Source of the DNA: Adlercreutzia sp. ZJ176 | GTDB taxonomy: Bacteria; Actinomycetota; Coriobacteriia; Coriobacteriales; Eggerthellaceae | DNA length: 64,000 bases | Direction: 5' to 3' | Assembly (NCBI RefSeq): GCF_011038975.1 | Contig: NZ_JAAKEC010000008.1 | Span: forward strand, 62,001-126,000 | In this document: piece after piece, positions 1 to 4,214 of the stretch | Layout: each line of letters starts with the position of its first letter | Numbering within the stretch: the first letter of the stretch is position 1 | Program-made: the position numbers and the translations under genes | Notes under the pieces: model-generated | Seen by the model: the letters and a program-made list of their open reading frames with translations, nothing else | The model's database searches: none | What the model was told of the DNA's origin: nothing

Positions 1-297
1 CTCGCCCAAGATGGACGGGATGAGGAAGCAGCCGTCCTGCTGCTTGGGGGCGTTCTCGAGCGCCACGCCTTGCGTGAAGCCCTCGCGCTCCACGTCCTCG
101 CGCATGACGTTGGACAAGTCGCCGATGGGGTGGAACGTGGGCTCGACGCCCGCGAGGTCGTATTCGGTGATGGGAGCCAGCGAGTCGATGATGGCGTTCA
201 GGTCAACCGTCATCTGCTTGACTTCCTCATCGTCGAGGCCGATGCGCGTGTATTCGGCGATGCCGCGCACATCATGCTCGGATAGGTGCTGTGTCAT
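1..297 (-). CDS. gatC: Asp/Glu-tRNA amidotransferase subunit C (partial)
   Basis: GatC is the small subunit of the GatCAB amidotransferase, which converts misacylated Glu-tRNA(Gln) or Asp-tRNA(Asn) to the amidated form in the cytoplasm. The 99 visible residues start MTQHLSEHDVRGIAEYTRIG and show the family layout: an N-terminal helical pair (LNAIIDSL) followed by the extended belt PTFHPIGDLSNVMREDV that wraps around GatA. The reading frame is open to the window edge, so the stop codon and presumably gatA lie outside. GatC proteins are usually 95-100 residues, so only a few codons are missing. A GAGG sequence about 11 nt before the ATG is the only visible ribosome binding site. Confidence 0.9.
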   Translation of the reverse strand, partial: MTQHLSEHDVRGIAEYTRIGLDDEEVKQMTVDLNAIIDSLAPITEYDLAGVEPTFHPIGDLSNVMREDVEREGFTQGVALENAPKQQDGCFLIPSILGE

Positions 298-466: not shown

Positions 467-1783
467 TCACATCCCGAGCTCGCGCGCCGCGGCGGCGAGG
501 GTTGCGCGCGTGAGGGGCTCGCCGTGCGGCACGTGGGTGGCGAGGCAAGAGAAGCGCGGCTTGTCGGCGAGATAGGCGTCCGCGGGCAGGCCCGCCCGCG
601 CGGCGAGCGCGCGGGAGGAGGCGCGCACGTCGGCCTTGGCGAGCCCTGCGCGGCGCAACGGCGAGACGACGCCCGCCTCGTCAAGCGAGCGGAAGCCCGG
701 GCGGCGCGCCGGGTCGTCGCTCGCGTTGGTGCCGTCGGCGAGCACCGCAAAGCCGTCGGCGCGCGCCGCCTGCCAAATGCGCGCGAAGATGAAGCGCTTG
801 CAGAGGCGGCAGCGGTCGGGCGGGTTCGCGCAGATGTCGGCCTGGGAGAGCACGTCGGCCTCGATCACGCGCAGGGGCACGCCGACGCGCGCGGCCACCG
901 CGCGGGCGTCGACGAGCTCGAAGGCCGGCTGGAAGGCCGTGCTCACCAGGTACGCCCCCACCTCGCAGCCCGCCGCGCGCGCGGCCGCGAGCAGGTACGC
1001 CGAGTCGGTGCCGCCCGAGAAGGCCACCGCGAGCCGCGGGGTGCGCGCGAGAAACGCCTCAAGCGGCTCCGCGCCGAGGCGCTGCCCCTCCCCCACCCAC
1101 GCCGCGTCGGGGGCCACCGCGCGCTCTGCGGGATGCTCGATCACGCGCATGTCAAGCCGCAGCGTCTGCTCGACGATGCGCATGAGCACCTCGTCGCTCA
1201 CCTCGGGTTCCACCTTCAAGAGCCCCACCAGGCCGAACAGCACCACGCAGAACATCTCGCGCACGAGGTCGATCTCCACCTGGTGGTAGGCGGCGTACTC
1301 GGTGACGATGTGCTCGTTGATGCAGTCGACCGTCTCGCGCACGGCGCGCACGTCGAACGCGTCACGCTGCCCGAGCTCCTCGAGCACGCGGATCATGGGG
1401 CGCGGGCCGTCGGCGTCGTAGAGCGCGAGGCGCAGGGCGCGCACGCCCTTTTTGAGCGAGGCGGGCGTGTCGCCGAACACGCGCAGCTCGTTCCACACGA
1501 GCACCGTCTCCACGAGGTCGGCCACGTAGTCGTCGAGCACGGCGTCGATGACGGCCTGCTTGCTGGCGAAGTAGTAGTAGAACAGCTCGCGCGTGATGCC
1601 CGCCTCGGCGGCGATGGCCGTGACGGTGGTCGCGCGCACGCCGTCGCGCTCGAAGCACGCCCGCGCCGCCTGCATGATGTCGCCGGCCTGCCCGCCGAGC
1701 CGCACGACGGCCGCGTCCTTCTGCCGCCCCGTGATGCGCACGCGGCGGCCGCCATCCTGCGCACGGCAGGGACGCTCGGGCAT
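467..1783 (-). CDS. TetR-type regulator fused to LarE-like PP-loop sulfur transferase
   Basis: This 438-residue protein joins two domains not normally found together. Residues 35-82 are a TetR helix-turn-helix (TVTAIAAEAGITRELFYYYF), followed by a helical ligand/dimer domain to about residue 215. Residues 240-438 resemble LarE, the ATP-dependent enzyme that donates sulfur to the nickel-pincer cofactor of lactate racemase: PP-loop SGGTDS at 256-261, CRLCK at 325-329, DGTNASDD at 350, SPL...GLAKADVR, and FSCLATHVPHG at 411 with the cysteine that aligns by motif with the LarE sulfur donor. The LarE part stops some 60-70 residues short of the usual length. The start ATG has AAAGGAG 7 nt upstream, inside the end of the preceding gene, so the two are an operon. 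An in-frame upstream extension exists but has no ribosome site. Confidence 0.8.
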   Translation of the reverse strand: MPERPCRAQDGGRRVRITGRQKDAAVVRLGGQAGDIMQAARACFERDGVRATTVTAIAAEAGITRELFYYYFASKQAVIDAVLDDYVADLVETVLVWNELRVFGDTPASLKKGVRALRLALYDADGPRPMIRVLEELGQRDAFDVRAVRETVDCINEHIVTEYAAYHQVEIDLVREMFCVVLFGLVGLLKVEPEVSDEVLMRIVEQTLRLDMRVIEHPAERAVAPDAAWVGEGQRLGAEPLEAFLARTPRLAVAFSGGTDSAYLLAAARAAGCEVGAYLVSTAFQPAFELVDARAVAARVGVPLRVIEADVLSQADICANPPDRCRLCKRFIFARIWQAARADGFAVLADGTNASDDPARRPGFRSLDEAGVVSPLRRAGLAKADVRASSRALAARAGLPADAYLADKPRFSCLATHVPHGEPLTRATLAAAARELGM

Positions 1784-1799
1784 GGGCGGCTCCTTTCGG

Positions 1800-2762
1800 C
1801 TACTCGTTCTCCTCGACGACGCGTCGGTACGCCGCGGTGTCGGCGTAGATCTCGTCGGCAAGCGGGTTCAGCTTGGCGCGGCGGATGCGAACGACCTGCC
1901 ATGCGGCAAGCGCCACGTTCGACGCCAGCGCGACCAAGCTTACCACGAAAAACGCCGTGGGGTTGTGCGTGGTGGGAATGGGGGCCAGCACGTCAGCGAA
2001 CTGCGGGACCGTCATGACGAACATGATCCACAGCGCGAGCGTCTGCGCGCGATGCTGCAGCCACGCGCCCCGCTTGATGAAGAAGGTGGGGATGGTGCAG
2101 GCGAGCAGGAGCGCCAAGCCGCAGTAGGCGGAGTGGTCGGAGATGCAGTTGTAGGTGTAGGCGAAGTTCCACAGATCGTAGGCGATGATCCACGCCCAGA
2201 TCATGTCCGGCCAGATCATGTCGCGCGTTCGGTCCTTCGATATGATGATGCCGAACCAGCCGCAGATGGTGAGGATGTTCAGGATGCCCGCGATGCCGTT
2301 CATGATGTTCCACGGGCCGGAGATGGTCCACAGGTTGTCGACGGTGCCTCCCGCCCACAAGCCGAAGCTGAACACCTGGAAGTCGCGGACGACCGCCTCG
2401 GCGATGTTGACGGCCAGGATGAGCGGCGGGAAGCACAGCGCCCAGCGCTTCTCGTAGAGGTGGTGGACCTGGCCGTCCTTGCCCTTCCACGTGACGAAGC
2501 GCAGGGCCATGAACCCGAGGCAGCCCGCGAGCGCCGAGTAGGTCTTAACCCAGTTGAACCACGTGCCCGTGCCGTACTCGTTGCCGGGGGCGGCGGTGGT
2601 CGGCCACACGAATATCGTGAGGAGGACCGGCACGACGAGGAAGAGCGTGATGCCCGCCCAGGGCCTCACGCGCCCCAACTCGTTGAACGCCATCAGGGCA
2701 AAGAGAACGAACAGCCATATGGCCAAGTAGATCGGGTCTGCTGCCTGGTAGAGAACTCCCAT
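1800..2762 (-). CDS. Polytopic membrane protein, possibly DUF5692 family
   Basis: An integral membrane protein of 320 residues with about nine hydrophobic segments. Distinctive stretches are WPTTAAPGNEYGTGTWFNW near residue 53, GGTVDNLWTISGPWNIMNG in the middle, and YTYNCISDHSAYCG. The tail (about 45 residues) is charged and cytoplasmic-looking. I do not recognise a transporter signature; it resembles what I recall as the DUF5692 proteins of Eggerthellaceae, whose function is unknown. The start has AGGAAGGGG 7-8 nt upstream. It precedes the TetR-LarE gene by 16 nt and is probably co-transcribed, so it may export or sense something controlled by that regulator. Confidence 0.7.
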   Translation of the reverse strand: MGVLYQAADPIYLAIWLFVLFALMAFNELGRVRPWAGITLFLVVPVLLTIFVWPTTAAPGNEYGTGTWFNWVKTYSALAGCLGFMALRFVTWKGKDGQVHHLYEKRWALCFPPLILAVNIAEAVVRDFQVFSFGLWAGGTVDNLWTISGPWNIMNGIAGILNILTICGWFGIIISKDRTRDMIWPDMIWAWIIAYDLWNFAYTYNCISDHSAYCGLALLLACTIPTFFIKRGAWLQHRAQTLALWIMFVMTVPQFADVLAPIPTTHNPTAFFVVSLVALASNVALAAWQVVRIRRAKLNPLADEIYADTAAYRRVVEENE

Positions 2763-2987: not shown

Positions 2988-4214
2988 CTACTCGAACAGC
3001 GCGGCGGCGCGGGCGAGCTCGGACGTGATCGCGATGTGCTGCGGGCACACGCGCTCGCACGCCCCGCAGCCGACGCAGCTCGACGCGGGGTGCGCGCCGG
3101 TGCTCCACGCGTAGTTCTCCTTCGCGCGGCGCTCGTCGCCGAACTGCGCCATGATGTTCAGGCTCTCGAGCGCAGAGGGGATGCCGATGTGCTGCGGGCA
3201 GCCCTTCACGCAGTAGCGGCAGTCGGTGCACGGCACGGTGGGCGCGTCATCCAAGATGCCGCGCACGCGCTCGACCACGGCCGCCTCCTCGGCGGTCAGC
3301 GGCTTGAAGTCGCGCATGACGCCCACGTTCTCGCGCATCTGATCGATGTTCGACATGCCCGAGAGCACCGTGAGCACGCCGGGCAGCGACGCGGCGAAGC
3401 GCAGCGCCCACGAGGCGAGCGGAGCTGAGGGGTTCGCCTCGGTGAGCACGGCGCGCGCAGCGGGAGGCAGCTTCACGAGCGAGCCGCCCTTCACCGGCTC
3501 CATCACGATGACGGGCAGGCCGTGCGCGCGGGCCACCTCGTAGCACTTGCGCGACTCCACCTTGGGGTTCTCCCAGTCGGCGTAGTTGATCTGCAGCTGC
3601 ACGAAGTCCACCTCGGGATGCGCGGCGAGCAGCGCCTCAAGCGCTGCGGCTTTGTCGTGGATGGAGAAGCCCACGCGGCGGATGAGCCCCTCGGCCTTCT
3701 TCTGCTGCACGAACTCCCAGAGCCCGTAGTCCTCGAACTGCTGCGAGAGCTCGCCGCCGAGGTTGTGCAGCAGGTAGTAGTCGAAGTACCCCGCGCCCGT
3801 GCGCTCAAGCGAGATGTCGAGCATGCCGCGCGCCTCCGCGGCGCTCTTCGCCGCCCAGGCGGGCAGCTTGGTGGCCAGCTGGAAGCTCTCGCGCGGGTAG
3901 CGGTCCACGAGCGCGCGCTTGATGGCGGGCTCCGACGCGCCGTCGTGGTAGGTGAACGCCGTGTCGAAGTAGGAGAAGCCGGCGCCCATGAACTCGTCGA
4001 CCATGGCGCACACCTGCTCGACGTCGATGGGCTCCCCGCCCCGGTCGGTCGCCTCGCCGATGTTGCGCGCGCTGCCGCTCGCGCAGACCGGCAGCCGCAT
4101 GAGCCCGAACCCCAGCTTCTTGATGCCAGCGCCGGCGCCGCTTCGGGCGTCGGGTGCGACACCTGCGGCGCCGTCCCGGATGCCAGCCGCAATGCCAGTC
4201 GTAACGTCAGCCAT
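2988..4214 (-). CDS. Aldo/keto reductase with C-terminal double [4Fe-4S] ferredoxin domain
   Basis: A 408-residue cytoplasmic oxidoreductase. The N-terminal 300 residues are an aldo/keto reductase barrel with the expected elements: FDTAFTYHDG (the tyrosine in YHDG is the likely acid), KLPAW with the partner lysine, DYYLLHNLG, and FVQLQINYADWENP. The C-terminus carries two ferredoxin motifs, CTDCRYCVKGCP and CVGCGACERVCP, which bind two [4Fe-4S] clusters. This family is widespread in anaerobes; the substrate is unknown. The first residues of the mature reading (TGIAAGIRDGAAGVAPDARS) are a low-complexity leader before the conserved start of the barrel. GGGAGGAGC precedes the ATG at good spacing. 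Confidence 0.9.
   Translation of the reverse strand: MADVTTGIAAGIRDGAAGVAPDARSGAGAGIKKLGFGLMRLPVCASGSARNIGEATDRGGEPIDVEQVCAMVDEFMGAGFSYFDTAFTYHDGASEPAIKRALVDRYPRESFQLATKLPAWAAKSAAEARGMLDISLERTGAGYFDYYLLHNLGGELSQQFEDYGLWEFVQQKKAEGLIRRVGFSIHDKAAALEALLAAHPEVDFVQLQINYADWENPKVESRKCYEVARAHGLPVIVMEPVKGGSLVKLPPAARAVLTEANPSAPLASWALRFAASLPGVLTVLSGMSNIDQMRENVGVMRDFKPLTAEEAAVVERVRGILDDAPTVPCTDCRYCVKGCPQHIGIPSALESLNIMAQFGDERRAKENYAWSTGAHPASSCVGCGACERVCPQHIAITSELARAAALFE

Follow-up and report, generated by a model that had tools for sequence, protein, structure and literature searches.

The locus reported here joins, in one protein, parts of two described systems. The [4Fe-4S]-dependent LarE of T. maritima (PMC9283937; TIGR00268) is a PP-loop protein in which the CxxC-C cysteines hold the [4Fe-4S] cluster needed for sulfur transfer (PMC9283937). 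For the LarE of L. plantarum, Arg212 and Arg214 have been proposed to bind the substrate phosphate (PMC9283937), and Arg228 and Asp231 lie at the trimer axis (PMC7118094). The second system is the TetR regulators associated with the membrane protein DUF5692; genes for DUF5692 and TetR often neighbour IsrA-type oxidoreductases with HypA/HypB (PMC10134865), and in Eggerthellaceae the two occur as free pairs.

In Adlercreutzia sp. ZJ176 a single gene encodes a TetR regulator that continues into a LarE (Table 1). As compared to the T. maritima LarE, the protein shares the PP-loop SGGxDS, the CxxC-C ligands and the presence of larB and larC nearby, but its LarE sits behind a TetR regulator and, as in its free relatives, is without about 68 C-terminal residues, including by our own mapping the arginines for the substrate phosphate. 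With the DUF5692-associated TetRs (PMC10134865, and the free pairs of Eggerthellaceae) it shares the same TetR, the DUF5692 partner and the kind of putative operator that precedes DUF5692; those TetRs, however, are free and end a few residues past LRLDM, whereas here the chain runs on into LarE. A third point of comparison is the LarE-acetyltransferase fusions present in four other Eggerthellaceae genomes (G075, G076, G088 and G039), in which the same short LarE is likewise joined to an unrelated domain; there the partner is a C-terminal GNAT domain, while here it is an N-terminal regulator.

The fusion lies in the window, i.e., the whole stretch of 64,000 nucleotides of ZJ176 that was analysed (G000:C48:62001-126000), as an uninterrupted frame of 438 codons on the minus strand. 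A preliminary description of this DNA had read the frame as a TetR helix-turn-helix and ligand domain followed by the PP-loop, CRLCK and SCL motifs of LarE, with a partner gene immediately upstream, and had regarded the combination as undescribed. These points are borne out. The TetR half matches TetR_N and, in an alignment over its full length, retains 69 of the 73 positions with a conservation of 95% or more among 26 free relatives; all three LarE motifs are present; and the partner gene encodes DUF5692. A search of the literature for a TetR-LarE fusion returned nothing relevant; in none of the sources searched is the fusion described. Residues 239-431 match the NCBIfam LarE model TIGR00268 (E=4e-45, model positions 4-190 of 259), a narrow pass at 154.1 bits where the cut-off is 150, and residues 242-426 match the LarE of L. 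plantarum as well as a third PP-loop chain, 8cnz (phmmer, PDB). An AlphaFold model of the fusion built from two sequences had a mean pLDDT of 42, too poor for use.

Table 1. Features of the tetR-larE locus of Adlercreutzia sp. ZJ176 (positions in the window; residues are those of the fusion protein)
Feature	Position	Strand	Basis or remark
gatC, 5' part inside the window	1..295	-	followed by gatA, gatB, larB and larC1 outside the window
tetR-larE fusion gene, 438 aa	467..1783	-	ATG at 1783, stop 467-469
LarE-type PP-loop sulfur transferase part (predicted), residues 226-438, short C-terminal form	470..1108	-	
Cys413 in SCL (412-414), third cluster ligand by homology	545..547	-	invariant, 45 rows
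RCRLCK, residues 324-329	797..814	-	Cys325 and Cys328 (CxxC of CxxC-C) invariant, 45 rows
PP-loop SGGTDS, residues 256-261	1001..1018	-	S256, G257, G258 and D260 invariant, 45 rows
Junction, residues 213-225	1109..1147	-	comparison with free TetRs and free LarEs
TetR part, residues 28-212: helix-turn-helix and ligand-binding/dimerisation region	1148..1702	-	alignment, dN/dS
TetR_N helix-turn-helix, residues 36-82	1538..1678	-	Pfam, E=5.5e-14, 52.1 bits, cut-off 24
Ribosome-binding site AAAGGAG, 6 nt before the fusion ATG	1790..1796	-	sequence
DUF5692 membrane-protein gene, 16 nt upstream of the fusion	1800..2762	-	E=1.3e-128
Candidate palindromic operator TTTACA-N13-TGTAAA	2842..2866	.	104 nt before the DUF5692 start (script's count)
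Aldo/keto reductase with 4Fe-4S ferredoxin domain	2988..4214	-	beside larE in many relatives; indicates the former larE site

The fusion is a real protein-coding unit and is lineage-specific. In Adlercreutzia sp. ZJ473 (G028), residues 1-418 are encoded in one frame, with 95% identity to ZJ176, up to the end of a contig, and a second contig carries the remaining C-terminus, the final residue being at the identical position. Between the two genomes, residues 28-418 show a dN of 0.019 and a dS of 0.125 (dN/dS about 0.15), with 34 of the 51 differences at third positions. Taken by part, dN/dS is 0.33 for the helix-turn-helix core, 0.13 for the ligand domain and 0.11-0.14 for the linker and LarE, the comparison for the linker comprising four nucleotide differences in all. 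LarE residues 241-418 are under constraint, and free evolution is limited to the first 27 residues of the fusion, which are unconserved in relatives too. We searched 138 genomes of the family and then 398 genomes of the class; no further TetR-LarE fusion was found among the 398, both domains being spanned by the same two proteins only, and a few longer matches among these genomes represented read-through of stops. The notion that Eggerthellaceae in general keep the fusion does not hold: a widespread fusion is ruled out by its occurrence in 2 genomes only among the 398 of the class, both in a genus represented by three genomes, and the third (G029), like the others, has separate tetR and larE genes.

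The history of the locus can be followed in the relatives. There, DUF5692-tetR forms an isolated two-gene pair at a locus of its own, and larE belongs to a block with the order ychF, aldo/keto reductase, larE, (gatCAB), larB and larC, of which each genome retains a part. In G029, for instance, a free larE is found in the order ychF-larE-gatCAB-larB and DUF5692-tetR lies elsewhere; the order in ZJ176 is ychF, aldo/keto reductase, DUF5692, tetR-larE, gatC, gatA, gatB, larB, larC1. We note that larE and larB are separated by gatCAB in ZJ176 (G000:C48:57173-62000, just before the window) and in several relatives. In a LarE tree the fusion LarE of ZJ176 groups with the free LarE of G029 (support 100/97), and therefore it is larE that stayed and the regulator module that moved in. 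This comparison shows that the DUF5692-tetR module came between the aldo/keto-reductase gene and larE by rearrangement, and that tetR was joined in frame to larE when a small number of unconserved codons were lost. The free TetRs stop a few residues past EQTLRLDM (..LRLDMxPL..) with an unconserved tail, and the free LarEs have a variable start before GEGQRLGAEPLEAFxARTPRLAVAFSGG; therefore the join at residues 213-225, which removed LarE's own start, cost neither domain its conserved part.

With respect to the TetR half, most free relatives are 66-76% identical to it, the corresponding DUF5692 proteins are about 84-91% identical, and in the tree a long stem branch leads to the fused TetR. DUF5692 adjoins the TetR gene in 13 of the 13 TetR loci compared. 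Beyond the pair itself no neighbour that might hint at a ligand is conserved in all of these loci, and no family of the IsrA-type oxidoreductase/HypA/HypB kind is conserved next to the pair in them. A second, diverged DUF5692-TetR pair of ZJ176 (L002, G000:C49; 44% and 39% identity) is unfused. A palindrome upstream of DUF5692 is conserved in 27 genomes, mostly as TTCACA-N13-TGTGAA; the form TTTACA-N13-TGTAAA is that of the fused clade and is seen in two genomes besides, and some genomes combine a half-site of one form with a half-site of the other. In the fused clade both half-sites have been altered symmetrically, from TTCACA..TGTGAA to TTTACA..TGTAAA. The whole ZJ176 genome contains a single exact copy of the palindrome and six sites with one mismatch, as compared to two matches per strand for a control pattern; the palindrome is absent at larB and larC, and no sigma-70-type promoter was found beside it. 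There is strong evidence, from its conservation, that this palindrome is an operator, and the TetR would presumably be the protein that binds it.

The LarE half retains all of the catalytic residues. In an alignment of 45 LarE rows from 44 distinct places, S256, G257, G258, D260, Cys325, Cys328 and Cys413 occur without exception in every row, and the fusion is the sole LarE match over the cut-off in the ZJ176 genome. The preliminary description had considered the LarE part truncated by about 60-70 C-terminal residues, and it had speculated that the domain might hence act as a sensor of AMP or of sulfur-donor state. The shortness itself was seen correctly, as about 68 C-terminal positions of the TIGR00268 model are missing; the same short C-terminus, however, is found in nearly all close free LarEs examined, including those beside larB, so that the shortness predates the fusion, and we reject the truncation as a fusion-specific mark of a sensor. 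The full C-terminal segment is present in four more distant LarEs (L074, L075, L077 and L078). The missing segment carries, according to our own mapping, Arg212, Arg214, Arg228 and Asp231 of the L. plantarum LarE, and it was not found elsewhere in the ZJ176 genome (best E 0.2). The short LarEs probably bind their substrate and assemble differently. To judge by its sequence, then, the second half of the fusion would be a LarE-type protein of the short form, whose exact product we infer. A short LarE and a GNAT acetyltransferase in one frame were observed at L062:7645-8904, L066:7196-8548, L065 and L100 (the first two checked with Pfam).

The surroundings of the fusion supply part of the pathway. 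Of larA, larB and larC, which the preliminary description suggested be looked for, larB (267 bits) and larC1 (187 bits) lie 5-6.5 kb downstream of the fusion, on the same strand and outside the window; LarA was not found, there being no Lar_N match in ZJ176 or its genus. The LarC of the genus spans positions 1-234 of the 375 of Ni_insertion (L082:11988-12911 in G000:C48; L041:1490-2392). That of G029 stops where the ZJ176 LarC does, other genera have a full LarC, and at the locus itself no LarC2 is found near larC1 in this genus. With LarA absent, LarC2 not nearby and LarC partial, the end product of the pathway in the genus is therefore uncertain.

We consider it likely that the gene product is bifunctional, a fusion particular to this lineage in which LarE has been brought under the control that the DUF5692 TetR exerts on its own operon. 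The TetR half would most likely still dimerise and, by way of the palindrome at 2842-2866, repress the operon that encodes it, and the LarE half would most likely still be a [4Fe-4S]-dependent sulfur transferase that works with the nearby LarB and LarC1, a reading based on the motifs, the synteny and the selection described above. LarE would be made within a DNA-binding protein, the operon would be controlled by that protein's own ligand, and the fusion would represent a bifunctional chain rather than a new sensor domain. What counts against this explanation is that the substrate-arginine segment is missing, that LarC is partial without a nearby LarC2, and that there is no LarA. One might instead suppose that the LarE part is no longer an enzyme and that it now gates the TetR as a sensor of AMP, ATP or sulfur-donor state; the loss of the segment with the substrate-binding arginines would fit such a change, and the long stem branch of the fused TetR could mean an altered function. 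We think this unlikely, since the segment is equally missing in free LarEs beside larB and its absence is older than the fusion, since the catalytic residues are all retained in what is the genome's sole LarE, with larB and larC1 nearby, and since LarE residues 241-418 are constrained. A sensor role for the LarE part is without specific support.

Alternatively, both halves might be active and also coupled, so that LarE turnover, substrate or cluster state would alter DNA binding by the TetR, as in a trigger enzyme. That both halves are intact and constrained, and that larE now sits in what would be a TetR-controlled operon, lends this some probability, albeit a low one; however, in dozens of genomes this TetR functions without a LarE, the operator is absent at larB and larC, and the LarE-acetyltransferase fusions of other Eggerthellaceae suggest that the short LarE accepts partners without any obvious link. 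It is doubtful that the state of LarE (its substrate, adenylate or [4Fe-4S] cluster) has direct control of the TetR such that transcription of the operon would track the flow of pincer-nucleotide synthesis. The fusion might also exist in the DNA only, if translation from an internal start also yielded a free LarE, or if the chain were cleaved, and the functions were thus separate. An in-frame ATG (residue 212) and GTG codons do occur near the junction, but these are without a good ribosome-binding site, whereas the fusion start has one, and the ATG of residue 212 corresponds to a conserved Met of the free TetRs and not to a LarE start, all of which makes separate products quite improbable. An assembly error or frameshift joining two genes, raised as a concern in the preliminary description, is extremely improbable: we found no point in its favour, and the identical junction in ZJ473, at 5% amino-acid divergence and with mostly third-position changes, rules it out.

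The preferred reading, a bifunctional chain under the regulator's own control, would make this locus a clear instance of an enzyme captured by a regulator. Close relatives show what the parts were before they fused, and also the locus, the junction and the operator, so that the effect of the fusion on either function is directly testable. The family as a whole raises a further question. Most of the Eggerthellaceae LarEs examined are without the segment thought to bind the substrate, though larB is often adjacent, and a recognisable LarA is found in few Eggerthellaceae genomes; this leads us to propose that in Eggerthellaceae the synthesis or the use of a pincer-type nucleotide may follow an undescribed route. 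Several weak Lar_N matches in relatives resemble DUF362-type ferredoxin proteins. A divergent LarA-like protein is encoded directly after larE-larB in G037 (L115:7665-8972), a type that was not found in ZJ176 and that occurs in 5 of the 138 family genomes; this protein, whose homologue L118 has a match to DUF362 and a weak one to Lar_N, is possibly a divergent user of the pincer nucleotide.
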